Of a DNA stretch of 64,000 nucleotides, positions 22,211-49,981 are shown one piece after another. Both the position numbers and the translations under genes were made by a program. The notes beneath the pieces were generated by a model, which worked only from the letters and a program-made list of their open reading frames with translations, had not been told where the DNA came from and made no database searches. Origin of the DNA: Alloalcanivorax dieselolei B5 (GTDB lineage: Bacteria; Pseudomonadota; Gammaproteobacteria; Pseudomonadales; Alcanivoracaceae); the NCBI RefSeq assembly GCF_000300005.1, contig NC_018691.1, forward strand, positions 2,480,001 to 2,544,000, in the 5' to 3' direction. How positions within the stretch are numbered: position 1 is the stretch's first letter; each line of letters opens with the position of its first letter.

Positions 22211-23122
22211 CTACTCCTCGGTCTCCATGGACAGGCTGTAGACGTAGGCGGCCAGCACGTGGATACGTTCCGGCGTCAAAACCCCTTCATGGGCTGGCAT
22301 ATGCCCCTGACGGCCTTCCCGGATGGTGGTTTCGATGTCCTCCAGACGGGCCCCGTAGAGCCAGATACCATCGGTCAGGTTGGGGGCGCCAATCATCTGG
22401 TTGCCGGTGGCGTCGGCGCCATGGCAGGCGGCGCACACCTGGAACCGAGGCTCGGCCCGTTCGGCCGCGTCACGATACTCTGGCTTGTCCTTGAGGTCGG
22501 GCCGGCTGAGGGTTTGCACGTACATGGCCATGTCCCGCACCGCTTCGTCGCTGTTGCCAATGGCCGCCGCCATCGGCGTCATGGTGCCGCGGCGTCCACT
22601 GGTAATGGTCTGCACGATGGCGTCGGGGGAGCCGCCGTAGAGCCAGTCACCATCGGTAAGGTTGGGATAGCCGCGTGCGCCGCGCGCATCGGAGCCGTGG
22701 CAGATGGCGCAGTTCTGCGCGAACAGCCGGCCACCAACGTCCCGGGTCTCGGGATAATGAGCCAGCTCATCCACCGGCACCTTGGCGAATTCCTGGAACA
22801 ACGGCTCGCTGCTTTTTTCCACCAGCGCCACTTCCTGTTCCCATTGAGTGACGCTGGTCCAGTTCAGCAGGCCGCCGAACCGGCCCAGGCCTGGGTAGAG
22901 CACCAGATAGCCGACGGCGAAAACCAGGGTGCCGATGAACAGAAACAGCCACCAGCGGGGTAGGGGCTGGTTTCGCTCCTCGATGCCGTCGAACTTGTGA
23001 CCGGTGGTGTCCTGTCGCGCCTCCTCGGCGGACAGGCGGGAATTGGCGAACAACAGCACCGCGCAACCCACCAGATTCAACACCACGATAAAAATGATGT
23101 ACCCGCTCCAGAAATCACTCAT
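22211..23122 (-). CDS. ccoP: cbb3 cytochrome oxidase dihaem subunit III
   Basis: 303 aa: two N-terminal membrane helices, then two cytochrome c domains with CAICH and CAACH, axial Met segments (GTMTPMA, GHMPAHEG). Delivers electrons to CcoO/CcoN from the periplasm. Begins MSDFWSGYI, typical of the family; its start overlaps the ccoQ end by 8 bp. Confidence 0.96.
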   Translation of the reverse strand: MSDFWSGYIIFIVVLNLVGCAVLLFANSRLSAEEARQDTTGHKFDGIEERNQPLPRWWLFLFIGTLVFAVGYLVLYPGLGRFGGLLNWTSVTQWEQEVALVEKSSEPLFQEFAKVPVDELAHYPETRDVGGRLFAQNCAICHGSDARGARGYPNLTDGDWLYGGSPDAIVQTITSGRRGTMTPMAAAIGNSDEAVRDMAMYVQTLSRPDLKDKPEYRDAAERAEPRFQVCAACHGADATGNQMIGAPNLTDGIWLYGARLEDIETTIREGRQGHMPAHEGVLTPERIHVLAAYVYSLSMETEE

Positions 23123-23285
23123 GGATTTGCTCCCCGCCGCTCCCGGCCCGGGCCTGTTGATCGTCACGCACCGGCAGCTTGGCCAGTTCCTGATATTGCT
23201 GTTTGCGGCCGGGCCGGTAGACCCAGGCCACCAGGGCGAGAAACGCCAGGAAAAACAGTACGGTCAGAACGCTGTGATAAGTCAT
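23115..23285 (-). CDS. ccoQ: cbb3 oxidase small subunit CcoQ
   Basis: A 56-aa protein: a single membrane helix (about residues 5-22) then YRPGRKQQYQELAKLP, typical of CcoQ, and a polar tail. It overlaps ccoO by 4 bp and ccoP by 8 bp. It stabilises the complex. It is short enough to be missed by automated length cut-offs. Confidence 0.92.
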   Translation of the reverse strand: MTYHSVLTVLFFLAFLALVAWVYRPGRKQQYQELAKLPVRDDQQARAGSGGEQIHE

Positions 23286-32266: not shown

Positions 32267-32740
32267 ATGGCTAAACGCAAGAAACCCCATACCCCGGCGG
32301 AGTATGGCTACGACTTTTCCGAGCAAGTTGGGCATCTGCTGCGCCGAGCCTACCAGCGGCATACCGCCATCTTCCAGCGTCATAGCTGTGACAAGCAACT
32401 CACCGCGATTCAGTTCGTGGCGCTATGTACTCTGGTGGAGAAGGGGCCCTGTTCGCTGACCGACATCGTTCAGGCCACGGCCATCGATCCAGCCACGGTG
32501 CGTGGGGTGATCAAGCGGTTGAAGGCACGGGACTGGATTGAGCTGTCCACCTGCCCTCAAGACCAGCGCAAGGTGATGGTAACGATCACGCCGTTGGGGG
32601 AAGCGCTGGTAGAGGAAATGATACCGACGGCTCAGCATATCACCGACCTGACCATGGAAAATCTCAACCCCGCCGAGCGAGTGGCGTTGTTGCATCTGCT
32701 GGCCAAGATGGGGTTGCCCGGCGAAGACGGTGGCGACTAA
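32267..32740 (+). CDS. MarR-family regulator, candidate NicR-type regulator of nicotinate catabolism
   Basis: 157 aa with the MarR fold: N-terminal dimer helices, wHTH (LTDIVQATAIDPATVRGVIKRLKARDWIEL, wing STCPQDQRKVMVTITPLGEAL), C-terminal helix. Its place beside the nic operon and the operator-like repeats make it the likely regulator (NicR in Pseudomonas putida is also MarR-type, and responds to 6-hydroxynicotinate). No second regulator resembling NicS (TetR) is in the island. Its stop codon directly abuts the tctA stop on the other strand (no gap). Confidence 0.82.
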   Translation: MAKRKKPHTPAEYGYDFSEQVGHLLRRAYQRHTAIFQRHSCDKQLTAIQFVALCTLVEKGPCSLTDIVQATAIDPATVRGVIKRLKARDWIELSTCPQDQRKVMVTITPLGEALVEEMIPTAQHITDLTMENLNPAERVALLHLLAKMGLPGEDGGD

Positions 32741-34258
32741 TCACTGCAGCTGCCGGGTACGACGCAGATCGTCCCGATAGCGCACAAACCAGGGCGCCAC
32801 CACCGGCAACGCGATGGCCGCCGCCGCCACAATCAGCAGAGTCAAGGCGATCGGGCTGTGAACGAATATATCCCAGGAGCCGCGACCGAGGATCAGGCTG
32901 CGGCGCAGATTTTCTTCCAGCAAGGGTCCCAGAATCAGCCCGAACGCCAATGGCGCCGCCGGTAGTCGCAGTAGATGCAGCAAATAGCCGATCACACCGA
33001 AGGCCAGCATGATGTAAACGTCAGCCATGGTGTTACGAATGGCGAACGAACCCACCACACACAGCACCGTGATTACCACCAGCAGGATATGAGAGGGAAC
33101 GCGGGTCACCCAGGCCACCCAGCGCATTAACAACAGGCCAATAACCAGAGTCAGAATCAGCGCGAGAAAAAACGACGCATAAACACCGGATACGAAGTCC
33201 GGGTTGTTGGCGAACAATCCCGGTCCTGGTCGTAAACCGTGAATCAACAACGACCCCATCAGCACCGCGGTAATGGCATCACCAGGGATGCCGAGGGTCA
33301 TCATGGGGATCAACGTGCCTCCCACGCTGGAGCTGTTGGCGGCTTCCGGCGCCACAACACCTTCCACCGCCCCCTTGCCAAATTGATCCGGACGCTTGGA
33401 AAAGCGCATTTCCTGAGCATAGGCGATAGCCACCGCGATAGCCGAGCCGGCAGCGGGAATCGCGCCCACGGCGGCGCCGATGAAGGAGCCGCGCAGCAAG
33501 GTTTTCCATTGCCCGAGCAATTCCCTCATGGGCGGCCACAGGCGGCCGATGGCAGGCATCACGCTTTTCGCGGAAGGCCTGCCGGCGGCGCCGATGTTCT
33601 TCATCACCTCGGCGAAGCCGAACAGACCCACGCACAGCGGCACCAGTTCGATGCCTCCTTCCAGCACCGGGCTATCAAAGGTCAACCGGGGGATGTCGGT
33701 GAGGCTGTCGAATCCCACCATGCCACAGAGCAGGCCCACGCCGCCGACCAGCATGCCGCGCAGGGTAGACCCCGGCGACGCATAGGCGAGCAACACCAGA
33801 CCGAATACCGCCACCGCGGTGAACTCCGGGCTGCGAAATTTCATCGCCGCGGACGCCAGCAACGGTGCCACCAGCACCAGCGCCAACAAACCGATCAGCC
33901 CTCCCACGGTGGAGGACACCAACGCATAGGTGAGTGCCTGGCCGGCGCGTCCGGAACGCGCCATGGGATAACCATCCAGTTGCGTGACGATGGCCCCCGG
34001 CGTGCCGGGTATATTGATCAGAATCGCCGAAATCGACCCGCCGTAGACACTGGCCACGAACACCGCGAGCAGGAACAGAATCGCCATATGCGGGTCCATG
34101 CTGAAGCTTATCGGCAACAGGATCGCCAAGGCCATGGTGGAACTGACCCCGGGCATGGCGCCGAGCACCACGCCCAGCACGGTACCGGCCGTCGCCAGCA
34201 GCAGCCCCCAGGGCGATAGCACTGTAGCACTCAGCACGGACAGGAAATCATTCAGCAT
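32741..34258 (-). CDS. tctA: Tripartite tricarboxylate transporter, large membrane subunit
   Basis: 505 aa with about eleven membrane helices. Family hallmarks: LGVVLGAMPGVSSTMALAILLP, ILINIPGTPGAIVTQLDGYPMARSGRAGQAL (repeat-type motif), and ANSSSVGGTLIPMMTLGIPGDAITAVLMGSLLIHGLRPGPGLF. Last gene of the nicCDEF-tctCBA operon, so the transported acid is probably nicotinate or a pathway intermediate such as 6-hydroxynicotinate or maleate. This is inference: the family is best known for citrate and other carboxylates. Start at MLNDFL, 12 bp after tctB. Confidence 0.9.
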   Translation of the reverse strand: MLNDFLSVLSATVLSPWGLLLATAGTVLGVVLGAMPGVSSTMALAILLPISFSMDPHMAILFLLAVFVASVYGGSISAILINIPGTPGAIVTQLDGYPMARSGRAGQALTYALVSSTVGGLIGLLALVLVAPLLASAAMKFRSPEFTAVAVFGLVLLAYASPGSTLRGMLVGGVGLLCGMVGFDSLTDIPRLTFDSPVLEGGIELVPLCVGLFGFAEVMKNIGAAGRPSAKSVMPAIGRLWPPMRELLGQWKTLLRGSFIGAAVGAIPAAGSAIAVAIAYAQEMRFSKRPDQFGKGAVEGVVAPEAANSSSVGGTLIPMMTLGIPGDAITAVLMGSLLIHGLRPGPGLFANNPDFVSGVYASFFLALILTLVIGLLLMRWVAWVTRVPSHILLVVITVLCVVGSFAIRNTMADVYIMLAFGVIGYLLHLLRLPAAPLAFGLILGPLLEENLRRSLILGRGSWDIFVHSPIALTLLIVAAAAIALPVVAPWFVRYRDDLRRTRQLQ

Positions 34259-34270
34259 GGCGGGCCTCAA

Positions 34271-34795
34271 TCAACCGATCGGCACTTTTAGTACCGATAC
34301 AAAAACCACATAAAGGAAGGTACACAGCAGCCCTCCCAGAATCAGACCAGAAAACAGTGCGCGCGCTCTCCGCCCGTTGCGCCGCCCGCTCAGCCAGGCG
34401 GTCCAGGCGGCACTGAACAGAAAAGCCGCGGGCAGCAGACCAATCCTGGTGGCGGCCAGACACAGCACGACCATACCGAGAAACAAGGCCACGGCAGGCA
34501 AATGGTCGCCTTGGCGCAGCGACGGTCCGCCCTGCGCTCCGGAAAAAAAACGGACCAATCCTTTGACCAGGATCAACGCCGTCCCCAATGAGAGCAGGCC
34601 TAATACCAGCACCGGCAGGAAGGCGGCTCCCGGGTCCAGCCCGCTCTCCAAACTGGCCATGAGGCGCTTGCCGCTGAGTACCGAAAACCAGCCGGCGGCG
34701 CAGATGATGGCGAAAAAGGCGGCGACCGCCAGATCCAGAATCGGACTTGTGGTGGCCTCGGAAGTGTCGACGTTATCGGCAGGGTGTTGGGCCAT
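34271..34795 (-). CDS. tctB: Tripartite tricarboxylate transporter, small membrane subunit
   Basis: 174 aa, four membrane helices (for example LDLAVAAFFAIICAAGWFSV, FLPVLVLGLLSLGTALILV). The GAAFLPVLVLGLLSLG segment is typical of TctB. Poorly conserved family, assigned with support from its place between tctC and tctA; 3 bp after tctC. Confidence 0.85.
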   Translation of the reverse strand: MAQHPADNVDTSEATTSPILDLAVAAFFAIICAAGWFSVLSGKRLMASLESGLDPGAAFLPVLVLGLLSLGTALILVKGLVRFFSGAQGGPSLRQGDHLPAVALFLGMVVLCLAATRIGLLPAAFLFSAAWTAWLSGRRNGRRARALFSGLILGGLLCTFLYVVFVSVLKVPIG

Positions 34796-34798
34796 GGC

Positions 34799-35764
34799 TC
34801 AGTCTTCGAGCAGATTGGCGTTTTCGAGGATCGTCTTCACTTCCAGGGCGCGCCGGTCCAGGTAGTCGCGGCTTGCCTCTGCGTCGAGAGGCATGATCAC
34901 CAGGCCCAGTTCAGCGGCCTTGCTCTGAAACCCATCATCATTGAGCAGGTCATGGAAGCCTTTCTCCAACCGCTGACGGCGATTCCCGGGCACGCCTTTG
35001 GGCAAATAGAGCATGTAAAAATCCTCGGCGATGAAATCGTAGCCCTGCTCCTTGAAGGTCGGCACATCCGGGGCGAAGGGATGACGCTTCTCAGCGGCCA
35101 CGCCGATGATTTTCACTTTGCCGGCCTTGTGTTGTTCGGCGAGGAGTGGAATCGGCAACGTGGAGGACATGACTTCCCCGGAAACCAGAGCCGAGGCAGT
35201 GGGCGCATAGCCCTGATAGGGGATCTTGCTGAGCGTCACGCCGAAACGCTTCTCGAGCATGGTGGCCGCGATGTAGGAAAATCCACCGGGGGAATCGTTG
35301 CCGTTGAGGATGGAACCGGGCTGCTCTTTGAGCGCCGCCAGATACTGTTTGACGGTACTGATGCCGGTGTCATTGGAAACCGCCAGGGACGCGGGCTCGG
35401 GACCGATCAGCATCAGTGGTTCCAGATCCGCCAGCGGCGTGGCGTTGGCGTTCATGTAGCTTTGCGCGATGGCGTGAGTGCCCATCATGCCGATGGTATA
35501 ACCGTCCGCTTCGGACTGGGCCACGTGCCGAACGCCATTGGATCCGGCGGCGCCGGTTACATTGTTCACCACCATGGCAACCGGCAGGTTTTGCGGTGGG
35601 TTCTCCGCCATCAACCGCGCCGCCAGATCGTAGGCCCCCCCCGCCGGCCAGGGCACGACTATGGTGATGGGCTTTTCCGGAAAATCAGCCATGGCCCGGC
35701 CGGTCAGGGTTCCGAGCATGACCACCGCAAGAATGATGGTGACGAGAGATTTGGCACTCTTCAT
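34799..35764 (-). CDS. tctC: Tripartite tricarboxylate transporter, periplasmic binding protein
   Basis: 321 aa with signal peptide (VTIILAVVMLGTLTGRAMA) and the Bug/TctC fold: FPEKPITIVVPWPAGGAYDLAARLMAE, NVTGAAGSNGVRHVAQSEADGYTIGMMGT, GGFSYIAATMLEKRFGV, VPTFKEQGYDF. It should choose the substrate for TctAB. Directly downstream of nicF (15 bp), which ties it to nicotinate catabolism. Confidence 0.92.
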   Translation of the reverse strand: MKSAKSLVTIILAVVMLGTLTGRAMADFPEKPITIVVPWPAGGAYDLAARLMAENPPQNLPVAMVVNNVTGAAGSNGVRHVAQSEADGYTIGMMGTHAIAQSYMNANATPLADLEPLMLIGPEPASLAVSNDTGISTVKQYLAALKEQPGSILNGNDSPGGFSYIAATMLEKRFGVTLSKIPYQGYAPTASALVSGEVMSSTLPIPLLAEQHKAGKVKIIGVAAEKRHPFAPDVPTFKEQGYDFIAEDFYMLYLPKGVPGNRRQRLEKGFHDLLNDDGFQSKAAELGLVIMPLDAEASRDYLDRRALEVKTILENANLLED

Positions 35765-35779: not shown

Positions 35780-36427
35780 TCACAAGGATGACGATTTCAG
35801 TTGGGCAATGGCCTCGTCGATACCGATGACATCGCCGTACTTACTGTCAATATCGAACAAGTTGGCTTCGTGGGGCTCCGAGTGGCGATCGCCCACCGCT
35901 TCGCGGACCACCATCACGCGGAAGCCGTGTTGCAAACCGTCCACCGCGGTGGCGCGAATGCAACCACTGGTGGAGCAGCCCATGAGGATGAGGGTATCCA
36001 CGCCCAACGCCGTCAGAGTGGAGGCAAGAGACGTGCCGAAAAACGCGCTGGCGTATTGTTTGGTTATCACCAGCTCATCCGCCGCCGGTGCCACTTGCGG
36101 ACAGAACTCGGCGTCCGGGTTGCCCTCCACCATGGCGCGCATGACCGGCGCCTTCTTCACCCAGATACCGCCGTCCAGCTGGTTTTGGCCACGGTAGCGA
36201 ATATTGGTATGGATCACCGGAATGCCGCTGTGGCGAGCGGCTTCCAGCAAGCGCGGCGCATGGTTCATTGCTTCCACCACGCCCGGTGCGTAAAGCGCCG
36301 CTCCCGGGCGGGTGTAGGCCTGCAGAAAATCCACCGCCAGCAAAGCAGGGTGGCGCCCGAAACCGACCCGGCCGCCCCAAACCCCCTGGTAGTTGCTGGC
36401 CAGGTCATCCCGATTGCCGTTACTCAT
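35780..36427 (-). CDS. nicF: Maleamate amidohydrolase
   Basis: 215-aa isochorismatase-like amidase that turns maleamate into maleate and ammonia. Catalytic triad visible: D33 (LLAVDFLQAYT), K123 (ITKQYASAF) and C156 (GCSTSGCIRA). The cis-peptide region and the GG(I/V)W segment fit the N-carbamoylsarcosine amidase/NicF branch. Lies between nicE and tctC; the ATG after the nicE stop was chosen over a longer frame that runs into nicE. Confidence 0.92.
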   Translation of the reverse strand: MSNGNRDDLASNYQGVWGGRVGFGRHPALLAVDFLQAYTRPGAALYAPGVVEAMNHAPRLLEAARHSGIPVIHTNIRYRGQNQLDGGIWVKKAPVMRAMVEGNPDAEFCPQVAPAADELVITKQYASAFFGTSLASTLTALGVDTLILMGCSTSGCIRATAVDGLQHGFRVMVVREAVGDRHSEPHEANLFDIDSKYGDVIGIDEAIAQLKSSSL

Positions 36428-36437
36428 GATCTCCCCC

Positions 36438-37190
36438 TCAATAAGCGCCGGACAGCAGCGCGCCGGCTCCCGGTACCACCGGTTCCAGGTCCAATGCCTT
36501 GAGCATGGCATAGGTGGTGGCGATAGCGGCGGTCACCACCGGCTTGCCGGTGAGCGCCTCGACCTTGGGTACCGCCGCCAGGGACGGCATCTGCACACAG
36601 GCGGACAGCACGATGGCGTCGGCGTCGGAAAAATCCATGCCGGCGACGATATCCGGTAACCGGGCCGGGTCATGGCGCGCCACGTCCAGATTGTTGGGGA
36701 TCTCCAGCGCGCGATATTCGAGCACCTCGGTGCCCTCGCCACGGATGTACTCCACCACCATTTCGGTGAGCGGCTTCATATACGGGGCCACCACCACTAC
36801 CTTGTTGGCGCCGAGCACCTTGAGTGCATCCACCAGCGCCCCGGCACTGGTCACCACTTCGCATTCCTGATCGTTTTCCCGGGTACGCTGGCGCAATCGC
36901 TGCTGCGACTCGCGGTGGTAGCCCGGCCCCATCGACATAATGGCGACGAGACAGGCGTAACCCATGACGTCCACGGCGGCATCACTGAGCTCCAGCGCGC
37001 AACGATCGGACTCGCCGTCCATGGCGGCCAGTTCTTCCTTGCTGACGGTTTTCATGCGCATGCGGCTGGAATGGAAGGTGAATCGATCCGGACGAATTTG
37101 CTGCCGGGCGGTCAACATGGCCGGAATTTCGGTTTCCATGGTGATGTTGGAACTGGGGACGATCTGGCCGATTCGATAAGGTCTGGTCAT
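36438..37190 (-). CDS. nicE: Maleate cis-trans isomerase
   Basis: 250 aa, the same length as Pseudomonas putida NicE and recognisably similar along its length (start MTRPYRIGQIVPSSN, end VPGAGALLSGAY). Asp/Glu-racemase superfamily; the two catalytic cysteines are C80 (GYACLV) and C198 (LSACVQM). Converts maleate to fumarate, the last step, feeding the TCA cycle. Confidence 0.95.
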   Translation of the reverse strand: MTRPYRIGQIVPSSNITMETEIPAMLTARQQIRPDRFTFHSSRMRMKTVSKEELAAMDGESDRCALELSDAAVDVMGYACLVAIMSMGPGYHRESQQRLRQRTRENDQECEVVTSAGALVDALKVLGANKVVVVAPYMKPLTEMVVEYIRGEGTEVLEYRALEIPNNLDVARHDPARLPDIVAGMDFSDADAIVLSACVQMPSLAAVPKVEALTGKPVVTAAIATTYAMLKALDLEPVVPGAGALLSGAY

Positions 37191-37213
37191 GATGTTCTCC
37201 CGACGAGGGCGGC

Positions 37214-39394
<2,181 letters not shown>

Positions 39395-39491: not shown

Positions 39492-40547
39492 ATGCCCGTC
39501 AGTCAGAGCGAACTTACTCAACACTTCGAGCACGTACTGCGTCTTTCCAGGGTGGACGAGAGCCAAAGCGTGGCGATTCTCAAGAGCCACTACTCCAACA
39601 CTTTTATCGTCAATGCGGCGATGGAAGCCGCGCTGCGCCTCAAGGCACGCGCTTACATCGTTGAGTTGCCCGCCTTCAACCACGAGACCGCCATGGGTAA
39701 CGACCTTACCGCCTATGTGGGCCATACCGCGCTCACCGACCACCCCGCCGCCCAGCAGGCGCTGATGGCCGCCGATCTGGTGGTGGATACAATGATGCTG
39801 CTGCACTCCCCGGAGCAGGAAGCCATCCTCAAGTCCGGCACCCGCATTCTGCTGGCGGTGGAGCCACCGGAGATGCTGGCGCGCATGCTGCCCAGCGAGT
39901 CGGATAAACGCCGCGTGGTCGCGGCACAGAAGGTGTTCGAGCAAGCCGCCACCATCAAGGTCACGTCCGCCGCCGGCAGTGACTTCCAGGCCGCGCTGGG
40001 CCAGTACCCGGTGGTTACCGAGTATGGCTTCGCCGATGAACCGGGCCGTTGGGATCACTGGCCCAGCGGATTCCTGTTTTCCTGGCCCAACGAGGGCACC
40101 GCCGAGGGGACTCTGGTACTGGACGTCGGCGACATCCTGTTACCGTTCAAGAACTACGTGCGGGAAAAACCGGTGACGCTGGAAATCGAGAAAGGCTTCA
40201 TCAAACGCATCCACGGCGGCTTCGACGCCGAGTACCTGCGCGAATACATGGAACACTTCAAGGACCCCGAAGTGTACGCGCTGTCGCACATCGGCTGGGG
40301 GCTGCAGCCGCGCGCCCAATGGACGGCCCTGGGCTTGCACGACAAGAACGACGCCATTGGCATGGACGCCCGTGCTTTCGAGGGCAACTTCCTGTTCTCC
40401 ACCGGCCCCAATACCGAAGTGGGCGGTCCCCGCAACACGCCTTGCCACATGGACATCCCGATGCGTCACTGTACTGTGATGCTCGATGATCTGACCGTCG
40501 TCGAGGAAGGAAAAGTGGTGGCACCGGAAGAGTCCTTATCCCGCTAA
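39492..40547 (+). CDS. nicX: 2,5-dihydroxypyridine 5,6-dioxygenase
   Basis: 351-aa extradiol-type ring-cleaving dioxygenase of the NicX/M29-like fold, giving N-formylmaleamate from 2,5-dihydroxypyridine. It resembles P. putida NicX throughout. The iron ligands correspond to H266 (SHIGWGLQP), H319 and D321 (PCHMDIP), each one residue from the described positions. Strong ribosome site AGGAGG. Divergent from nicC, convergent with the molybdenum hydroxylase gene. Confidence 0.95.
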   Translation: MPVSQSELTQHFEHVLRLSRVDESQSVAILKSHYSNTFIVNAAMEAALRLKARAYIVELPAFNHETAMGNDLTAYVGHTALTDHPAAQQALMAADLVVDTMMLLHSPEQEAILKSGTRILLAVEPPEMLARMLPSESDKRRVVAAQKVFEQAATIKVTSAAGSDFQAALGQYPVVTEYGFADEPGRWDHWPSGFLFSWPNEGTAEGTLVLDVGDILLPFKNYVREKPVTLEIEKGFIKRIHGGFDAEYLREYMEHFKDPEVYALSHIGWGLQPRAQWTALGLHDKNDAIGMDARAFEGNFLFSTGPNTEVGGPRNTPCHMDIPMRHCTVMLDDLTVVEEGKVVAPEESLSR

Positions 40548-40635: not shown

Positions 40636-42957
40636 TCAGTCCGCCCGTCGCCCGCCGGCGAGGGCGGCGCGCACCCGCTCCGGAGTGAACGGCGGATGTC
40701 GAAAACGCACGCCGGTGGCATCGAACAAGGCATTGGCGATGGCGGGCGCGGCGGGCAGGGAAGTGGACTCTCCAACACCCAGAGGTGGCGTCTCCGGCGG
40801 CTCCAGCAGCACCAGATCAATCTCCGGCAGCTCGGAAAACCGCAGCAGCGGGTAACCGCCCCATTCCCGTGCGGCGGGCAGGCCATTCTCAAAAGGCACG
40901 CTTTCCTTCAGGGTGCGGCTGAGCATCTGGATGATATTGCCGTGCACCTGATGGCGAACCCCCGCGGGATTGATCATCAACCCAGCATCCTGGGACACCA
41001 CCAGGCGCCGCACCCGGATCACGCCACTGACCGGATGGACCCGCAGGAACACCACCCAGGCGGCCAGGGCGGCGCCAAAGCCGGGAAACCTGCTGTGCAC
41101 ATAGCGCGCATAGGCCAGACCGCGACCGTGTAACCAGCCATCACCGTCCGCCACTTTCGCCCCCCGCTTTTCGGCCGACCAGTCGGCACGTTCGGCCGCC
41201 GCCAGCAATACGGCGCGGGCACGCTCGTCCTGGAGATGGCGCAGCCGGTACGCCAACGGGTCAGCACCCGCCAACTCCGCCAGTTCGTCGATATAGCTTT
41301 CGTGAGCAAAGGTATTGGGCAATGCCGACACGCCGCGCAGCCAGGCAGCGCGGATCAGGACGGGCACATCGTCACTGGCGATGCGGCGGCGAGGATAGGC
41401 ATAGGGCGGCACGGCGGTGCGATCGCCCATCTGAAAAGGGTGCTCGGAGGCCGCCACCGCGCCGGTCAGCCGCAACGCCAGGGTAGGGGCGTTGTCCGAC
41501 GGGTAGCGGGTGACGAAACGGTAACTGATCGGGTCGCCGTGCTCATCCTGCTCACCGTCCACATCCATGATCTGGGCCGCCCCTTTGGGCTCCCATAAGT
41601 GCTCCTGTTCTCTGGATAGCTGTACCCGGACCGGGCGACCCACCGCACGGCTGAGCAACGCGGCGTCGGCCCCCACATCGTCGGCACAGTTGCGGCCGTA
41701 ACAGCCGGACGCTTCCAGCCGGCGAATGTCGATATTGGCTTCACTCAGATCCATCAGCTTGGCCAGATCGGCACGCAGGCTGTGAGGATTCTGGGTGCCG
41801 GACCAGACCGTCAGCGCCGAGTCCCGATAGTCCGCCACCGAGCAGGAAGGACCGATGGAGGCGTGTAACTGGTAGGGCCAGACGTAGGTACGATGCAGGG
41901 TCGAGCCCGCTGGCGGTGGGTCGGCACCCTCGTCTTCCAGCAGTTGCCGGCGCCGGGCGGGGAGCCCGCGCAGGGCACTCTCCAGGTCATCCGCTGCGTT
42001 TAGGGGCGGTAATTGCCGGGGCTGGCGCCAACGCACCTTGAGGCGTTGCGCCGCGCGCATCGCCACCTCCTCCCGTTCCGCCACTACGCCAACAAAATCG
42101 CCCATCACCACCACGTCCACCAGGCCCGCGAGTCCGGCCAGCGACTCCCGCTCCACCGCGATCAGGCTGGTGCCGACAAATTCGCCCCGGTCCAGCCCGT
42201 GATAGGGCGGCCGAACCACGCGGCCGTGCAGCATGCCGGGCAGGCGCACGTCATGCACGTAGCTGAGTTCACCACGCGCCTTGGCGGGAATATCCACTCG
42301 CGCCGCGCGCTGACCCACTATTTTGTAGTCCGCGCGCGACTTAAGCGTCACCTGGTCGGCCAGCTTCAATACCTCCCGGCGGCCCTTCAACAGCTCAGCA
42401 TAACCAATACGCCGATGCGGAAGCCGACGATCACGAATGACGCCATCGACCACCTGCAAAGAGTCCCTGGGTATTCGCAAATGGACCGCGCCCAACTCAC
42501 GTAGCCGCTCTCGAGCCTGGGCCGCGGCCCGGCGCAACGGCTCGGCAGTGACCTGAATGCTGGCGCTGGCAATGGTGGGTCCCTGATTGGGGACCTCCGA
42601 AGAATGACCAAGCACCATGGTTACCGCCTCGAACGGAACGTCCACCTCCTCGGCGACGATCTGGCCCAGCGCGGTGCGAATTCCCGTGCCCAGGTCAACA
42701 TGTCCGTTGAAGCCCAGCACCCGCCCATCCGCCAGCACGGCAATGAAAAGTTCCGGCTCGGTAGGCACGAAGTCCGAATCCGTGCCGGGCTGGCCCGGGG
42801 CGGGCTTGGGTGTTGGCTGTGGATCGCGATACACCACCAACACATCCGGTTGCTGCAGCAGGGTGTCACGGCGAGGCAGGGGAGTGGTTCGCATAGTATT
42901 CAGATCATCACGTCGACGCTGTGCATGAGCAAGCAGGATTGTCCGACGGGGGTTCAT
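40636..42957 (-). CDS. nicB1: Nicotinate hydroxylase large subunit, molybdopterin part without cytochrome tail
   Basis: 773-aa xanthine-oxidase-family protein (isoquinoline-oxidoreductase-beta/NicB type). It shows the Mo-pterin segment FNGHVDLGTGIRTAL (about 83-97), QGPTIASASIQVTAEPL, the hinge YVHDVRLPGMLHGRVVRPP, QLHASIGPSCSVADY, SGTQNPHSLR, EASGCYGRNCADDVGADAALLSRAVGRPVRVQL, and the active-site Glu in PPLGVGES (E730). It matches the MoCo part of P. putida NicB but stops after it, with no CxxCH. The N-terminus (MNPRRTILLAHAQRRRDD) keeps RR but no hydrophobic anchor. 'nicB1' is a working label. Start ATG has a weak ribosome site; a TTG 36 bp upstream is possible. Operator 34 bp upstream. Confidence 0.85.
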   Translation of the reverse strand: MNPRRTILLAHAQRRRDDLNTMRTTPLPRRDTLLQQPDVLVVYRDPQPTPKPAPGQPGTDSDFVPTEPELFIAVLADGRVLGFNGHVDLGTGIRTALGQIVAEEVDVPFEAVTMVLGHSSEVPNQGPTIASASIQVTAEPLRRAAAQARERLRELGAVHLRIPRDSLQVVDGVIRDRRLPHRRIGYAELLKGRREVLKLADQVTLKSRADYKIVGQRAARVDIPAKARGELSYVHDVRLPGMLHGRVVRPPYHGLDRGEFVGTSLIAVERESLAGLAGLVDVVVMGDFVGVVAEREEVAMRAAQRLKVRWRQPRQLPPLNAADDLESALRGLPARRRQLLEDEGADPPPAGSTLHRTYVWPYQLHASIGPSCSVADYRDSALTVWSGTQNPHSLRADLAKLMDLSEANIDIRRLEASGCYGRNCADDVGADAALLSRAVGRPVRVQLSREQEHLWEPKGAAQIMDVDGEQDEHGDPISYRFVTRYPSDNAPTLALRLTGAVAASEHPFQMGDRTAVPPYAYPRRRIASDDVPVLIRAAWLRGVSALPNTFAHESYIDELAELAGADPLAYRLRHLQDERARAVLLAAAERADWSAEKRGAKVADGDGWLHGRGLAYARYVHSRFPGFGAALAAWVVFLRVHPVSGVIRVRRLVVSQDAGLMINPAGVRHQVHGNIIQMLSRTLKESVPFENGLPAAREWGGYPLLRFSELPEIDLVLLEPPETPPLGVGESTSLPAAPAIANALFDATGVRFRHPPFTPERVRAALAGGRRAD

Positions 42958-42990
42958 TTTACCCGTTTTGCCTGTTCTGCCCGTTTTATC

Positions 42991-43027
42991 CAATAAAAAA
43001 CGTATACACCATTTATTGTCGGGTCAA
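42991..43027 (-). promoter_or_regulatory. nicB1 promoter with 28-bp operator
   Basis: Minus strand: -35 TTGACC, 17-bp spacer, -10 TACGTT. The 28-bp palindrome at 42991-43018 (arms CAATAAA / TTTATTG, centre GTATAC) overlaps the -10 and ends 34 bp from the chosen start, exactly as at nicC. Confidence 0.65.
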
Positions 43028-43165
43028 GAAAGTGTGATCAAAGTTTTTTTCCAGCATTCGATGCTGCCTTGTTGACATCAACTTTCATTCTATTTATAGC
43101 TATTTAAAGCTGAAAATCAGTAGAAAACCTATTCCAAAACAACGTTGCGATTATCGCACAAAGAA

Positions 43166-43209
43166 AGTGCATACACTCCAGAATGAAACTCATAAACAGT
43201 GTATGCACT
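43166..43209 (+). promoter_or_regulatory. Paired inverted operator upstream of nicA
   Basis: Two perfect 12-bp arms, AGTGCATACACT and AGTGTATGCACT, separated by 20 bp (centres 32 bp apart, about three helical turns). Each contains the CATACAC core of the nic operators. A TTGCGA lies 17 bp before TGCATA in the first arm, which could be the nicA promoter. The 314-bp gap from nicB1 to nicA holds only these control elements. Confidence 0.6.
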
Positions 43210-43271
43210 ACAAATTGGCCGTCTGGCATCGTCGCGCCCCCGAATGGTGCGGCAACGGAGAGAGCATACGC

Positions 43272-43775
43272 ATGCCCACCACGCACAGTGATCATTCCGA
43301 TGATCATACAGTTCGCCTTACCGTCAACGGCGAGGAACGGCGCCTCAGCGTGGCGCCATCCACGCCGCTGTTGTATGTGTTGCGCAATGATCTGTCGCTG
43401 AATGGCCCCAAGTTCGGTTGCGGCCTGGGCGAATGCGGCGCCTGTATGGTGCTGGTGGATGGCCGTGCGGCACGCGCCTGTGTGCTCCCGACCAAAGCCG
43501 TGGCGGGGCTCACCGTGACCACGCTGGAGGGGCTGGCTGATGGCAATCATCTGGACCCCGTGCAACAGGCCTTCATCGACGAGCAGGCGGCCCAATGTGG
43601 CTATTGTCTGAACGGCATGATCATGACGGTGCGCTCGCTGCTCAACGAAAACCCGACGCCAACGCACGAACAATTGGTCGCCGCTCTGGATCACAACCTG
43701 TGCCGCTGCGGCACACATGTGGAAATCCTGGCTGCCGCTTGCCGGGCGGCGGGGCTAAAAGGGGAGTCGTCATGA
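43272..43775 (+). CDS. nicA: Nicotinate hydroxylase small [2Fe-2S] subunit
   Basis: 167 aa with a plant-ferredoxin-type cluster (FGCGLGECGACMVLVDG plus the preceding loop Cys) and a helical second cluster domain (QCGYCLNGMIMTVRSLL, LCRCGTH). Passes electrons from the Mo centre. Start ATG preceded by GGAGAGAG; slightly longer than P. putida NicA (157) at the N-terminus. Its stop overlaps the next start (ATGA). Confidence 0.94.
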   Translation: MPTTHSDHSDDHTVRLTVNGEERRLSVAPSTPLLYVLRNDLSLNGPKFGCGLGECGACMVLVDGRAARACVLPTKAVAGLTVTTLEGLADGNHLDPVQQAFIDEQAAQCGYCLNGMIMTVRSLLNENPTPTHEQLVAALDHNLCRCGTHVEILAAACRAAGLKGESS

Positions 43776-46513
43776 TCGACACGCCCGCGCCCTACGCTCC
43801 CGGACTGCGCTATGGCGTGGTAGTGCGCCCACCGGAATACCGCCTCAGCGAGGGAGCTTTCCGGTGTTCCCCCTTGCTGGAGGCGGACATCACCGACACA
43901 GGGCAGGGCGACGACGTCACCGTGGTGGTGCAAGGCAATTTCGTCGGCGTGGTGGCGGACAGCCTGGAACTGGCCCGAGCCTCGGCCTCCCGCTTGTCGT
44001 TACGCTGGGGCGTGCCGGAGCAGGACGACCGTACCAGCATCGCCCCCCGGTTGATGGATACACGGCTGCATGCCACCTATCACTGGCCCGGGCGGCTCAG
44101 TTGGGGCCCACGCGCCGGCTGGGTGATGGCGGATTTCAGCGGCGACACCGCGCGCGTGCGGGTTGCCACCACCGACAGCCAGCAACTGCGTCGGGAGCTC
44201 GCTCTGCTCATGGACTGCGAGCCCCAGCGGATTGCCATGGCAACCGATGGAGAGAGCCCCCTGGGGCGCCACTGCGGAGACGATGCCGTCGCCGATGCGG
44301 CCCTGCTTTCCCGGGCCGTCGGCCAGCCGGTGGCGGTCTGGCTGGATTCGCAAACCTACGGCGGCGATGTGGAGGCATTGCGACATGCCCGGCGAATCCG
44401 CTTCAGCGGCGACCTTGGCGGTGACAGTTTCCGTCTTGAGGCCGACCAGGGCAGGGTAACGGTACCCGTGCTGGCCCTGTGGCTGACCGGCCGCTTGCAC
44501 GAGCAGCTGCCGCAGGAACCGGATGCAGCGGCGTTGCAATACCATTTCGCCCAGGAATCCTTTCTCGATGAAATCGCCGCCGCCAAAGGCGAGGATCCGA
44601 TAACGTTGCGCTTGCGCCATATCCAGGATCGACGCGGCAGACAATTGCTAACGGCGGTGGCCGAGCAGGCCCAATGGTCGAAGACCGGCGCCGGGGCGCA
44701 ATTGCACCAGGACCGGTTGCGCGGACGCGGCGTGGCCTACAGCCATCACCCGGCGACATCCGGCGGCGCCGGTCCCCGCAGTGCCTGGATCGCCGATGTG
44801 GAGGTCAACACCGTCACCGGAACGGTAAAGCTGGCACGTCTGATCGCGGGCCAGGATGCCGGTGACGATGGCCCTATTGCCCCTTTGTTGGACCCGGCAC
44901 CGTTGCGCCAGGCGCTGGAGCAGAAACTGCTGGGCCTCCCTGAAGCGCCACCGGCCGTGGACGACTGGGCCGCGGAAGACACGGCCACTCTTCTTACCAC
45001 CCCTCTTACCCCCCCTCTTGCCACACGAACCATCACACCGCCGGCCCGGCGACATCAGGCCAACACGCCCGCCACCGCCGAACAGATCGACCTGACACCG
45101 GCCGTGGCGGTGGTCGCCAACGCCCTTTATGATGCCACCGGCGTGCGCTTTCGCTCGCCACCGTTTTCTCCGGCACGGGTGCGCGCCGCGCTACACGGAA
45201 GAAACACTCCCCGGCGGCGGCGCTGGTGGTGGGCTGGCGGCCTGGCGGCAAGCGGCCTGCTGGCGGCGCTGTGGCCCTGGCCCGCGCCGTTGGCGCCAGT
45301 CGCCCGCCCCGCCGCCAATCTCTATTCCGAGGAAACCATCGAACGGGGTCGCCTGGTCGCCGAGGCTGGCGATTGCGCGGTCTGCCACACCGCCGAAGAG
45401 GGGACCACCAACACCGGAGGGCGGCCCTTCGAGACGCCATTCGGCGTCCTCCATAGCACCAACCTGACGCCGGATCCGGACACCGGCATCGGCCGCTGGT
45501 CCTACACTGCCTTCGAGCGCGCCATGCGCGAAGGCATTGCCCGCGACGGCCGTCATCTCTATCCAGCGTTCCCGTACACCGCCTTTGCCAGGATGAGCGA
45601 CGCGGACATGCAGGCGCTGTATGCCTATCTGATGGCACAACCGGCGGTGAGCGCCGTGCCGCCCAACAACCGGCTGCGCTTTCCTTTCAACGTCCGTTCA
45701 CTGATGGCCGGCTGGAACGTCTTCTTTCATCGCGACCAACGCTATCAGCCCGACACCGCACGCTCGGCGCAATGGAACCGGGGCGCCTATCTTTTCGAAG
45801 GGGCAGGGCATTGCAGCGCCTGCCATAGCCCCCGCAACCTGTTCGGTGCCGAGAAAAGTGGTGACGCCTATCTGTCCGGCGCCCTGGTGGATGGCTGGGA
45901 AGCGCCGCCGCTGACCGCCGACAATCGGGCGCCGGTGCCCTGGACCGAGGACGAGCTGTTTCATTATCTACGTAGCGGACGCTCCGAATTCCACGGCGTG
46001 GCCGGCGGCCCCATGGCTCCGGTAGTCGCCGGCCTGGCACGATTGCCAGAAGCCGACGTGCGTGCCATTGCCCATTATCTGGCCAGCCAGATGCAAGCCC
46101 CAACCCGCCTAACCGAAGCACAGCGCCAGCAAGCTCAGGACAAACTGGCCGCCAGCGCCATCGAACCGGCGGGTCTGGACGCTGGCCAACGCGTCTTCGA
46201 CGGTGCCTGCGCTTCCTGCCACGCCAGCGACGCACCGGCCACCTTCACCAGTGCACGACAAGCGCTTGCGCTCAATACCAATCTGCACAGCGAGCGGGCG
46301 GACAACGTTATTCAATCCATCCTCGGCGGCGTTCATGTCCAGGGTGGAACGGGAGCAGGGGAGATGCCCGCTTTCTCACACAGTTTAAGCGACCGCCAGA
46401 TCACTGATCTGGTGGCGTACTTGCGGGCGCGCTTCGCACCGGGAGAAACGCCCTGGAAAGACATCGGAAAGACCGTCGAGACGTTACGCAGGGAGCACGA
46501 CCAACAATCATAA
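43772..46513 (+). CDS. nicB2: NicB-like protein: degenerate molybdopterin domain fused to tri-haem cytochrome c
   Basis: 913 aa. Residues 1-475 align by eye with nicB1 from its residue 243 on (LRYGVVVRPPEYRL versus LHGRVVRPPYHGL; HCGDDAVADAALLSRAVGQPVAVWL; VANALYDATGVRFRSPPFSPARVRAAL) but are shortened. The first 240 residues with the Mo-pterin motif are absent, and the catalytic GVGE is replaced (AEQIDLTPAV). Then a basic patch RRRRWWW and one membrane helix (485-507), followed by three CxxCH haem sites: C535-H539, C681-H685, C813-H817. By the positive-inside rule the haems are periplasmic. Probably the electron-transfer and anchor subunit; 'nicB2' is a working label. Confidence 0.85.
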   Translation: MIDTPAPYAPGLRYGVVVRPPEYRLSEGAFRCSPLLEADITDTGQGDDVTVVVQGNFVGVVADSLELARASASRLSLRWGVPEQDDRTSIAPRLMDTRLHATYHWPGRLSWGPRAGWVMADFSGDTARVRVATTDSQQLRRELALLMDCEPQRIAMATDGESPLGRHCGDDAVADAALLSRAVGQPVAVWLDSQTYGGDVEALRHARRIRFSGDLGGDSFRLEADQGRVTVPVLALWLTGRLHEQLPQEPDAAALQYHFAQESFLDEIAAAKGEDPITLRLRHIQDRRGRQLLTAVAEQAQWSKTGAGAQLHQDRLRGRGVAYSHHPATSGGAGPRSAWIADVEVNTVTGTVKLARLIAGQDAGDDGPIAPLLDPAPLRQALEQKLLGLPEAPPAVDDWAAEDTATLLTTPLTPPLATRTITPPARRHQANTPATAEQIDLTPAVAVVANALYDATGVRFRSPPFSPARVRAALHGRNTPRRRRWWWAGGLAASGLLAALWPWPAPLAPVARPAANLYSEETIERGRLVAEAGDCAVCHTAEEGTTNTGGRPFETPFGVLHSTNLTPDPDTGIGRWSYTAFERAMREGIARDGRHLYPAFPYTAFARMSDADMQALYAYLMAQPAVSAVPPNNRLRFPFNVRSLMAGWNVFFHRDQRYQPDTARSAQWNRGAYLFEGAGHCSACHSPRNLFGAEKSGDAYLSGALVDGWEAPPLTADNRAPVPWTEDELFHYLRSGRSEFHGVAGGPMAPVVAGLARLPEADVRAIAHYLASQMQAPTRLTEAQRQQAQDKLAASAIEPAGLDAGQRVFDGACASCHASDAPATFTSARQALALNTNLHSERADNVIQSILGGVHVQGGTGAGEMPAFSHSLSDRQITDLVAYLRARFAPGETPWKDIGKTVETLRREHDQQS

Positions 46514-46553: not shown

Positions 46554-46733
46554 ATGCAACGAAGTAAATGGATCTGGCTGGTGTGGGTCGTGGTGGCGCT
46601 TTGCTACCTGGTTCCTTACACCATTCTCAGGGATGTACATGCCTGGTACGGAAGCTTTCTGTTCTGGAGTCTGGCCGGCGTCCTGGTGATCGCCATCAAC
46701 CTTTACATCACCAAAGATTTCGAGGGGCGCTGA
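46554..46733 (+). CDS. DUF3311-type small membrane protein
   Basis: A 59-aa protein with two membrane helices (WLVWVVVALCYLVPYTI and SFLFWSLAGVLVIAINLYI) and a charged C-terminus. This size and layout is that of the small partner regularly encoded just before SSS symporters. Ribosome site GAGGTGG; its stop is 2 bp before the next ATG. Confidence 0.85.
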   Translation: MQRSKWIWLVWVVVALCYLVPYTILRDVHAWYGSFLFWSLAGVLVIAINLYITKDFEGR

Positions 46734-46735
46734 AG

Positions 46736-48190
46736 ATGACCGAATCAATGATCTGGTGGTCGGTGGCGATCTACCTGGTGGTCGCCATAGGGATCGCGAT
46801 ACTGGCCCGACAAGGCAAAATGGCCGACATGTCCGGGTATTTTCTGGGCGATCGGAAAATGGGCGGCTTCGTATCCGCCATGAGTTATAGCGCCACCACC
46901 TACAGCGCCTTCATGATGGTCGGACTGGCGGGCTTGACCTATAAGGGCGGCGTCGGCGCCCTGGGGTTTGAAATCGTGTATTTCGCCGGCGTCTCCCTGG
47001 TGGCGATCTTCGGCCCCAGGTTCTGGGCGGTCGGTAAAAAGTTCGGCTACGTAACCCCCAGTGAGATGCTTGGCCATCGTTACGCCGACAAGAAAGTCTC
47101 CATGGCCGTGGCGATCTCCAGCTGTGTTTTTCTGATTCCCTATGCCGCGGTGCAACTGGCCGGTGTCGGCTACTTGCTGCAAGGGGCCACGGACGGCGCC
47201 ATCCCGTTTACCACCGGCGTGGTCCTTGCCACCGCCGTAGCCATTTTCTTCTCCTATGTGGCCGGCATCCGCTCGGTGATGTGGACTGACTCCCTGCAGG
47301 CAATCATGATGATCATCGCCTCCACGCTGGTGGCCTGGCTGGTAATCCAGGGCCTGGGCGGCTTCCACGGCCTGTTCGACACCCTCGCCGAAAAGAAGCC
47401 GGAATCCCTGGTGGTTCCCGGTCCGGGTCTGTTCAGCTTCATCACCTTCCTGGGGCTGACCATCCCCTGGTTTTTCTTCAGCCTGTCCAATCCCCAGGTC
47501 AGTCAGCGGTTGTTCATGCCATCCTCGCTGCACGCCATGCGCCGCATGCTGCTGGGTTTTCTGGTATTCGGCCTGATTTACACCCTGGTCTCCGTGCTGT
47601 GGGGGTTTTCCGCGCTCGCCGCCTTCCCGGATCTCGCCAAAGCCGACCTGGCCACCGCCACCTTGCTGGGTTCCGATTTGGTGCCCCCGCTACTAGGCGT
47701 CATCGTGCTGGTCGGCATCATGGCGGCGGCCATCTCCACCATTGATTCCATCATGCTGACGCTGTCCTCCATGTTTGCCCGGGACGTCTACGCCAACATG
47801 AAGGATGGCTGCGACGACACCAAACAGCTCTGGGTGGGCAAAATCGTGATCCCGATCATTGCCATTCTGGCGTTCGGCTTCGCCGAATTGCAGCTCGACC
47901 TGATCGCGGTGCTGTCGGTAGCGGCGTCCTCCGGTCTGGTGGCGGTGGTGCCGGCCACCATCGGCGCCTTCTACTGGAAGCGCGGTACCGCCGCCGGAGC
48001 CCTGGCGAGTGTGGTCGGCACCACCCTGATCGTGCTGATCATGTATGCCTCCGGTAACAGCTTCCTGGGCCTGCCGGCGGGCATCTGGGGCATTGTCGTC
48101 GCCACCGTGCTGTACGTGGGCGTGAGTCTGGCCTCCAGCGCCCCACTGGAGCGCGCCGCCGAGTTCGTGGACGCCAGCAAGAAATACTGA
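46736..48190 (+). CDS. Sodium:solute symporter family transporter
   Basis: 484 aa, about 13 membrane helices, SSS (PutP/SglT) family: FLGDRKMGGFVSAMSYSATTYSAFMMVGLAG, YVTPSEMLGHRY, GIRSVMWTDSLQAIMMI and the sodium-site region VLVGIMAAAISTIDSIMLTLSSM. Co-transcribed with nicA and nicB2, so it is a candidate importer of nicotinate or a related pyridine acid. In P. putida this job is attributed to NicT (MFS) and the porin NicP, neither of which is present here. The start overlapping the small gene's end is preferred to a longer out-of-family frame. Confidence 0.9.
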   Translation: MTESMIWWSVAIYLVVAIGIAILARQGKMADMSGYFLGDRKMGGFVSAMSYSATTYSAFMMVGLAGLTYKGGVGALGFEIVYFAGVSLVAIFGPRFWAVGKKFGYVTPSEMLGHRYADKKVSMAVAISSCVFLIPYAAVQLAGVGYLLQGATDGAIPFTTGVVLATAVAIFFSYVAGIRSVMWTDSLQAIMMIIASTLVAWLVIQGLGGFHGLFDTLAEKKPESLVVPGPGLFSFITFLGLTIPWFFFSLSNPQVSQRLFMPSSLHAMRRMLLGFLVFGLIYTLVSVLWGFSALAAFPDLAKADLATATLLGSDLVPPLLGVIVLVGIMAAAISTIDSIMLTLSSMFARDVYANMKDGCDDTKQLWVGKIVIPIIAILAFGFAELQLDLIAVLSVAASSGLVAVVPATIGAFYWKRGTAAGALASVVGTTLIVLIMYASGNSFLGLPAGIWGIVVATVLYVGVSLASSAPLERAAEFVDASKKY

Positions 48191-48355: not shown

Positions 48356-48372
48356 GTCAAGAGGTGCGCAGC

Positions 48373-49981
48373 ATGAACAAAAACGGAGCGATATCTGTTC
48401 TCGCCATTGCCGGCATGCTACTGAGCGGGTGCGGTGGGAGCTCGTCTTCGGACTTTGCCTTTATGGACCAGTGTGAGGCACTGGTGGGGCTCCCGGTGGA
48501 GGGGGGCAGCGTAACCAGCGCCACCTACACCCGCGCGAACGATGGTGACCCGTCCAGCTCCCTGTGGCCGGACCATTGCCTGGTCCGCGGGGCCATGAAC
48601 GAACGAACCGGGATCGACGGCAAACCCTACGCGTTGCGGTTCGAGGTACGCCTGCCGGAGGAGTGGAATGACCGCCTGTATTATCAAGGCGGCAGCGGGG
48701 TGGACGGCACCCTGTTCACCGCGGTAGGGCGGTACGCCGGCGGCGGCAATACCCGCAACGCCCTGATCGATGGTTTCTCCGTGGTAACCACGGACTCTGG
48801 CCATCAGGCGGAAACGGGCGCGCCGAACGGTTCCTTCCTGTTCGGCGCCGACCCCCAGGCACGCGATGAATACGGCGACATGCAGATTCCCAAGGTCACT
48901 GCCGCCGCGCGCACGGTGATCATGAGTCTGTACGGCAGCCCGGATCAGTATTCCTACTTCGTGGGCTGCTCCAACGGCGGGCGCCAGGCAATGATCGCCG
49001 CACAGCGGTATCCCGACCTGTTCGACGGGATCATCGCCTCCGCGCCGGGCTTCCGCCTGTCTCAGGCTTCGATCCAGGCGCTCTATCAAGCCCAGCTCAC
49101 CGCCGAAGTGGCGCCAATGGGGCCGGAAGGGCACCCGGATCTTTCCCAGGGCCTGACCGCCGCGGAGCGCACCCTGGTGCGCGACCGTATCCTTGACAGC
49201 TGTGACGGCCTCGACGGCCTGGAGGATGGTATCGTCCATCGGCTTTCCGCCTGTGAGCTGAAACCCTCCGACTGGGTATGCGGGGTGGGGGAAAGCGATA
49301 ACTGCCTGTCCGCGGAAAAAGCCGGGTATGTGGACGCCATGTTCGCCGGTGCTTACACCGCCGATGGAGACCTTATCTACTCAGCCTGGCCCTTCGATCC
49401 AGGCATGGTGGCACAGTTCGCCAATCCCTTTCTCGGCATCTTCGCCGGCGAGGCGTCGCACATCTACACCACGCCGCCGACCATCACCGAGGACCTCACC
49501 GGTTACGCACTGAACGCGGACATCGACGAGGAATACCGGAAATTGTTTGCCACCAACGCCACCTTCCAGCGTGCCGGCGTGGATTTTACCAATGGCGAAT
49601 CCCCCAACCTGGACGCTTTCCGTGCCAACGGCGGCAAACTGATTATGCTCAATGGCAGCGCTGACCTGGCCGCTGGACATGGCCGCCTACTATGAGGACG
49701 TGGAGCAGCGTTACGGCGCCGCCACCGAAGACTTCGTCCGCGCCTACGTGGTGCCGGGTATGGCGCATTGCGCCGGAGGCCTGGCCACCGATCGGTTTGA
49801 TTCGTTCGGCGAACTTCAACGGTGGACGGAGCAGGGGATTCAGGCCGACGAAATCGTCGGTACCGCCGGCGACGACACCCCTTGGCCTGGACGGACCCGA
49901 CCGCTTTGTCCTTATCCCACTGAAGCCGTCTACGACGGCGTCGGTGATCCGGAGGTGGCAAGTAGTTTCACTTGCCAATAG
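48373..49981 (+). pseudogene. Tannase/feruloyl-esterase-family lipoprotein gene with a frameshift
   Basis: Frame one (48373-49695) gives a lipoprotein (signal with LLSG-C20) of the tannase family: MLNERTGxxGK-type lid start, GGSGVDG, nucleophile GCSNGGRQ, and the acid region NGSAD. It stops at TGA 49693 just after. The missing C-terminus continues in the +1 frame (LDMAAYYEDVEQRYG ... GMAHCAGG with the catalytic His, to TAG 49979). Compared with the family pattern between the Asp and the YY, three residues are missing, which fits an 8-bp deletion between GCCG repeats near 49673. As read, the triad is split, so the product is probably inactive unless this is a sequencing error. Preceded by a nic-like operator; substrate unknown. 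Confidence 0.8.

Follow-up and report, generated by a model that had tools for sequence, protein, structure and literature searches.

Alloalcanivorax dieselolei B5 probably hydroxylates nicotinate with an enzyme encoded by three genes, in which reciprocal loss appears to have left the molybdenum site and the haems of an ancestral one-chain NicB on two complementary proteins, and in which the haem-bearing protein retains part of the molybdopterin (MoCo) domain as a putative docking part. The genes are found in the window, a stretch of 64,000 bases (G000:C1:2480001-2544000) from a genome of 4,928,223 bases. By sequence, NicB1 has a complete MoCo domain, NicA provides the [2Fe-2S] part, and NicB2 combines three haem c motifs, an anchor and a dead MoCo domain.

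Organisation of the nic locus

The nicB1-like gene (40636..42894, reverse strand; protein P0001) encodes a complete MoCo subunit with the catalytic Glu in GVGES and without a haem motif. The nicB2-like gene (43772..46513, forward strand; P0002) encodes a MoCo remnant followed by a hydrophobic anchor and a three-haem cytochrome c. The earlier note had described two genes on opposite strands here, and this was confirmed, with nicA (43272..43775, forward strand; P0003) sitting between them. The latter encodes the [2Fe-2S] subunit and overlaps the nicB2 start by ATGA.

The surrounding genes make up a nic cluster. Gene order and families identify nicC-like (38017-39378), nicD-like (37214-38020), nicE-like (36438-37217) and nicF-like (35780-36511) genes on the reverse strand, where a TctC-like gene (34799-35764) also belongs to the cluster. 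The nicX-like gene (39492-40547, forward strand) has no Pfam match at E<=0.001. As in NicAB-type enzymes, there is a MoCo subunit of the NicB clade with a catalytic Glu (P0001) and a NicA-type [2Fe-2S] subunit (P0003), but the MoCo domain and the three-haem tail are on two genes rather than on one chain. The locus agrees with the NicA/NicB1/NicB2 type, having separate Mo and haem genes, nicA and a nic cluster.

A sodium:solute symporter gene (46568..48190, forward strand) adjoins nicB2 and is a probable uptake gene; it has the same neighbour in loci L049-L052, L054-L058, L069 and L070. Two possible uptake systems flank the nic genes, this symporter and a Tct-like system (32741-35764). Beside the Tct transporter genes there is a MarR-family regulator (32267-32740), a candidate nic regulator. 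Downstream of the symporter lies a gene of the tannase/feruloyl esterase-like kind (48364-49695), and the window also has a FixP-like cbb3 oxidase subunit gene (22211-23167). An Rfam scan of the window gave nothing at the gathering score.

Two complementary NicB proteins

P0001 has 752 aa (read with two extra residues) and consists of a MoCoBD_1 and two MoCoBD_2 stretches in Pfam. It ends GVGES...NALFDATGVRFRHPPF and has zero CxxCH, so the MoCo motifs, the GVGES and the lack of haem sites described in the earlier note all hold. The residue number does not: the start at 42894 is preferred over 42957 because congeners align from there, which makes the catalytic Glu about E709, not E730. NicB1 orthologues in five congeners are 78-83% identical.

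P0002 (913 aa) starts within the MoCo domain and continues through NALYDATGVRFRSPPF, an Arg cluster and a hydrophobic stretch to the three CxxCH. The vestigial MoCo domain (aa ~11-475, 43802..45196) is colinear with P0001 aa ~221-748 and has lost cofactor-side residues. Behind the Arg cluster lies the hydrophobic anchor (45224..45292), predicted to be N-in by the positive-inside rule, and the haem c motifs follow at 45374, 45812 and 46208 (45374..46222), in a part where Pfam finds cytochrome c domains. The GxGE motif is absent from P0002 at the aligned place, and an unrelated GAGE sits in its haem part. The picture of a shortened MoCo region, deprived of its N-terminus and GVGE and followed by an anchor and three haem sites, was therefore correct, as was the near-identity of the MoCo ends (NALFDATGVRFRHPPF in P0001, NALYDATGVRFRSPPF in P0002).

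The two proteins match far beyond chance, with 33% identity over 545 aa (E=6e-56), beginning at P0001 residue ~221, and an hhalign probability of 100 between their profiles. A search with P0002 on its own gives two weak matches to MoCo enzymes in NCBIfam and, at E<=0.001, none to the Pfam MoCo families. A profile built from nine remnants detects the MoCo large subunit 8gy3_C (E=3e-17), and it is on such profile matches that the predicted MoCo fold of the remnant rests.

Three one-chain NicB relatives (L059, L060, L061; frames of 1191-1235 aa) stand in for the NicB of Pseudomonas putida. They are 54-55% identical to P0001 over 740-750 aa, and P0001 is therefore a one-chain NicB without its tail, or the unfused counterpart of one. 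Their identity to P0002 is 36-38% over 990-1016 aa, colinear from their residue ~217-244 on, which makes P0002 an N-truncated one-chain NicB. A frameshifted or assembly-broken nicB was rejected, since each of the two reading frames is open and is conserved in five congeners. Chance CxxCH were rejected as well, because of the Pfam cytochrome c domains and because there are exactly three CxxCH in each of the 36 NicB2 described below.

Distribution of the split enzyme

Eight of the 46 genomes in the window's family match P0002 at E<=1e-60. Six of these eight have the long form and belong to the window's genus, of which 13 genomes were examined, its own included; the remaining two matches cover the haem part only. 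A second family, that of genome G117, has matches in 33 of 201 genomes at E<=1e-130; it is taken to be Halomonadaceae because its rows join those of Vreelandella venusta (L070) and Halomonas JB37 (L069) with short branches. Two class-level families have 47/200 and 21/150 matching genomes, counts that mix remnant-type, one-chain and other forms.

A set of 36 remnant-type NicB2 loci, chosen from the matches and not drawn at random, was compared (the window, L049-L058, L069, L070, L179-L182, L255-L272 and L274). It spans the window's genus, Halomonadaceae, one more family of the order (L053) and the two class-level families. The contig scan for relatives (80 of 388, among the matches listed) gives names, not frequencies. 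In all 36 loci nicA is directly upstream of NicB2, and NicB1 is within the same nic cluster. NicB1 could be read to its end in 35 (26 whole and nine extended; the end of L069 NicB1 is not included), and each of these has zero CxxCH and a GxGES, which is GSGES in four. Conversely, the catalytic GxGE is present at its alignment columns in none of the 36 NicB2, nor is the N-terminal GHVDLGTG-type motif; a few have a chance G[VA]GE elsewhere.

The pair might still be two unrelated enzymes, NicB1 working with another acceptor and NicB2 serving a different dehydrogenase. The genes face opposite strands, and although the divergent neighbour layout is common to 5/5 congeners with the long form, NicB1 lies kilobases from NicB2, across the nic cluster, in the loci seen outside the window's genus. 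However, the two co-occur in nic clusters in 36/36 loci with nicA next to nicB2. In addition, the window's genome has no match to P0002 at E<=1e-60 other than P0002 itself, so no other close three-haem partner was seen there. We consider this explanation very improbable.

A vestigial domain under relaxed constraint

The losses in the remnant are not spread evenly. The reference set consisted of 37 of 39 rows, from one-chain, NicB1 and clean-split proteins, without the incomplete NicB1 sequences L069 and L180. Over the span of the remnant, 137 columns have an unchanged residue in at least 95% of this set. Of these columns, 27 are kept in 0/17 NicB2 tested, and 48 are kept by 80% or more of them. 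Lost in NicB2 are Q370 of the GTQ loop, R394, G399-C400-Y401, R425, Q427, R430, K439 and others, which we take to lie on the cofactor side. Retained are RPP, Y-x-W-P, D547-P548, R552, W574, G592, G594, W615 and NA...ATG-x-R. NicB2 thus appears to have kept scaffold residues and lost cofactor-side residues.

Remnant lengths, whose values vary with the start chosen (the first in-frame Met or a point just ahead of the RPP motif), run from 541 aa (L052, L069) down to 323 aa (L261); the 22 NicB2 from the class-level families have 323-530 aa. Two stretches of P0002 form a shared core: aa 256-360 (44537..44851), with columns at least 93% filled in each of the 36 NicB2, and aa 441-471 (45092..45184), which contains NALYDATGVRFRSPPF and has columns 100% filled in each. 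By comparison, 13/36 have fewer than half of the columns of aa 121-200 filled, while aa 201-220 and 381-400 are filled too, but poorly conserved.

Could the remnant be functionless, merely preserving an anchor in the N-in orientation and the overlap of nicA with nicB2 on its way out? Its Nei-Gojobori w of 0.12-0.43 exceeds that of the haem arm (0.04-0.23) in 9/9 pairs and that of NicB1 (0.08-0.30) in 9/9 pairs, in two of them barely, so part of the remnant may simply be decaying; its reduction to 323 aa in the shortest case points the same way. On the other hand, w stays below 1 in 9/9 pairs (which share rows), the core columns are filled in 36/36, and ES..DE, G-R-G, SAW and ATG-x-R are conserved in at least 90% of NicB2. 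Furthermore, clean-split relatives demonstrate that a haem arm is possible without a remnant. A functionless remnant is unlikely in our estimation, and by the codon comparisons the remnant is under purifying selection, a constraint that is relaxed yet real.

Origin of the two genes

When NicB2 is left out, the tree joins one-chain NicB and NicB1 in a clade (100/98), with the clean-split forms outside. The sister of NicB1 as a whole is the one-chain protein L185 (100/99), and NicB1 makes up one side of a branch (91/54). A quick tree without bootstrap that adds 13 NicB1 of 19 new loci agrees (97, 99, 81; 3 of 11 outgroups used, and L051, L058 and L198 left out).

For the remnant columns, a tree with 4 of the 11 outgroup rows unites NicB2 in a single clade (100/100), which has long branches and lies inside the NicB group (85/84). 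The AU test on these columns does not reject a NicB2 outside the one-chain, NicB1 and clean-split forms (p 0.226); a clade of one-chain NicB and NicB1 without NicB2 has an AU p of 0.078. As to the haem arm, NicB2 branches among one-chain NicBs in two trees, one of them (97) a quick tree without bootstrap, made with 3 of 10 outgroup cytochromes and 16 of 19 new NicB2 and leaving out L051, L058 and L198. The best trees of this arm do not unite NicB2 in a single clade, though such a clade is not rejected (p 0.274); for one-chain NicBs as one clade the test gives p 0.096.

The earlier note had regarded a wide separation of the two MoCo regions in a tree as evidence against its proposal of duplication and reciprocal loss. 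In the best trees both genes group with NicBs and not with distant subfamilies. Because NicB1 and the NicB2 haem arm branch inside the one-chain clade, reciprocal loss from one-chain nicB ancestors appears to be the best reading of the history. The duplication half of the proposal is less secure: one gene may have duplicated in place, NicB1 and NicB2 as sisters being not rejected (AU p 0.288). On the preferred reading, an ancestral one-chain NicB with a MoCo domain and a haem tail would at some point have been present in two copies. The first would have lost its haem tail and become NicB1; the second would have lost its first ~220-240 residues together with cofactor-side residues and become NicB2, whose remnant would have shrunk further in some lines.

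The two copies may instead have come from two different one-chain nicB genes, united by transfer and only then stripped of complementary halves. A concatenated quick tree without bootstrap, from which L179_B2 was dropped as well, places NicB1 with L185_F (99) and NicB2 within other one-chain NicBs (84, 82). Moreover, one-chain (L185), two-gene (L263, L272) and clean-split (L273) forms occur in different species of a single genus, g452, suggesting transfer or interconversion. However, long NicB2 branches blur its placement, and the sister arrangement survives the AU test cited above. An origin from two sources is a serious possibility, though one that we doubt.

It is also conceivable that NicB1 never had a haem tail and is an old separate Mo subunit, fusion having happened only behind NicB2 and one-chain NicB. 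The clean-split rows branch outside one-chain NicB plus NicB1, so separate genes may be ancestral, and two fusions cost no more steps than one fusion and one loss. Against this, a one-chain protein, L185, is the sister of all NicB1, and NicB1 resembles the one-chain forms in being without the RR-type signal of clean-split Mo subunits. A primitively unfused NicB1 is rather unlikely, and reciprocal loss from a fused nicB is preferred here.

Topology and electron transfer

An RR-type signal is found in 6/6 clean-split Mo subunits and, by the same pattern, in 0/30 NicB1 frames. The one-chain rows examined are also without it, L191 having a weak RK look-alike. NicB1 is therefore expected in the cytoplasm. 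In NicB2, residues rich in Arg and Lys precede the anchor on its N side, and the protein starts in the MoCo remnant; for this reason the remnant is predicted to be cytoplasmic, on the same side as NicB1 and NicA, with the haems in the periplasm.

On the proposed mechanism, NicB1 would convert nicotinate to 6-hydroxynicotinate, as the cluster suggests, and electrons would pass from Mo to the [2Fe-2S] of NicA, on to the NicB2 haems and from there to quinone or the respiratory chain. The remnant would keep the protein-protein surface of the old domain and hold the haem arm against NicB1/NicA. Such docking of the haem arm is proposed from sequence comparison.

It is tempting to go further and regard the dead MoCo domain as a pseudo-protomer that replaces the second NicB of an old homodimer. 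If so, each active NicB1 would be paired with one inactive NicB2, the enzyme would be asymmetric, with a single membrane haem arm for every active site, and the shared core (aa 256-360 and 441-471) would be the interface. This extension is speculative, and we think it improbable as it stands.

Haem c is attached in the periplasm. Throughout the NicB group (window 45224-46513; L059-L061 and others), MoCo or Fe-S parts without an RR-type signal precede an anchor that looks N-in. This poses a topological puzzle, as electrons would have to cross from a [2Fe-2S] on the cytoplasmic side to a periplasmic haem.

Comparison with known enzymes

NicAB of Pseudomonas putida KT2440, a system associated with Jimenez et al. 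2008, reportedly has a one-chain NicB. The present system is like it in its nic pathway genes, [2Fe-2S] NicA, MoCo domain and three-haem tail. It differs in that MoCo and haems are on two genes and the haem gene carries a dead MoCo domain, the one-chain relatives serving as stand-ins in this comparison.

The best PDB matches of both proteins are chains of the membrane aldehyde dehydrogenase 8gy3 (P0001, 1e-51; P0002, 5e-108), which is made of Mo, Fe-S and cytochrome c subunits. As here, Mo and cytochrome belong to separate subunits, chains C and A respectively. A MoCo remnant is missing from the 444-aa cytochrome subunit of 8gy3, whose match to P0002 starts only at aa 489; the haem subunit of the 8gy3 type is free of MoCo sequence and P0002 is not. 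Enzymes of this type act on aldehydes in the periplasm, and P0001, set against them, has no RR signal.

Further relatives are the clean-split NicA-Mo-cytochrome operons of L064, L074 and L075 (Pigmentiphaga), L080 (Verticiella), L193 and L273. They too have separate Mo and haem genes, and in trees they are next to the clade of one-chain NicB and NicB1. They differ in lacking a remnant, in having an RR-motif signal on the Mo subunit and in the adjacency of their Mo and haem genes. Possibly these operons are a periplasmic version of the enzyme.

The division into NicB1 and NicB2 is already known. Nicotinate hydroxylase is described as tripartite (NicA, NicB1, NicB2) in Burkholderia gladioli and Bordetella in the available part of PMC10269826, and for Delftia Cs1-4 the order nicB2, nicA, nicC, nicE, nicD, nicX, nicF, nicB1 is printed in the accessible part of PMC4572682. 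This printed order is that of L181/L182. By description and gene order, the NicB1 and NicB2 of B. gladioli, Bordetella and Delftia would belong to the same three-part hydroxylase. Both papers, in the parts available, name the split and give no vestigial MoCo domain; in the haem subunit of relatives from the class-level families, the remnant is present. The accessible part of PMC10293998 lists one nicB, and those of PMC6837509 and PMC9171043 hold nothing bearing on the NicB2 remnant. Literature searches, which reached few subscription papers, found no description of a vestigial MoCo domain in NicB2, and this domain is apparently undescribed.

Implications for evolution and annotation

One-chain NicB, remnants whose lengths run from 541 to 323 aa, and clean-split relatives form a graded natural series, in which a catalytic domain is seen to give up catalysis and become a part of the protein that is its electron-transfer partner. 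For annotation, the consequence is that the label 'nicotinate dehydrogenase subunit B', when assigned by similarity, can mark the inactive haem half; the gene with the active site may then lie at another point of the cluster and bear a different name. In the part of PMC4572682 that is available, Delftia nicB1 is entered as an aldehyde dehydrogenase; from the gene order printed there, we infer that Delftia nicB2 is of the remnant type.
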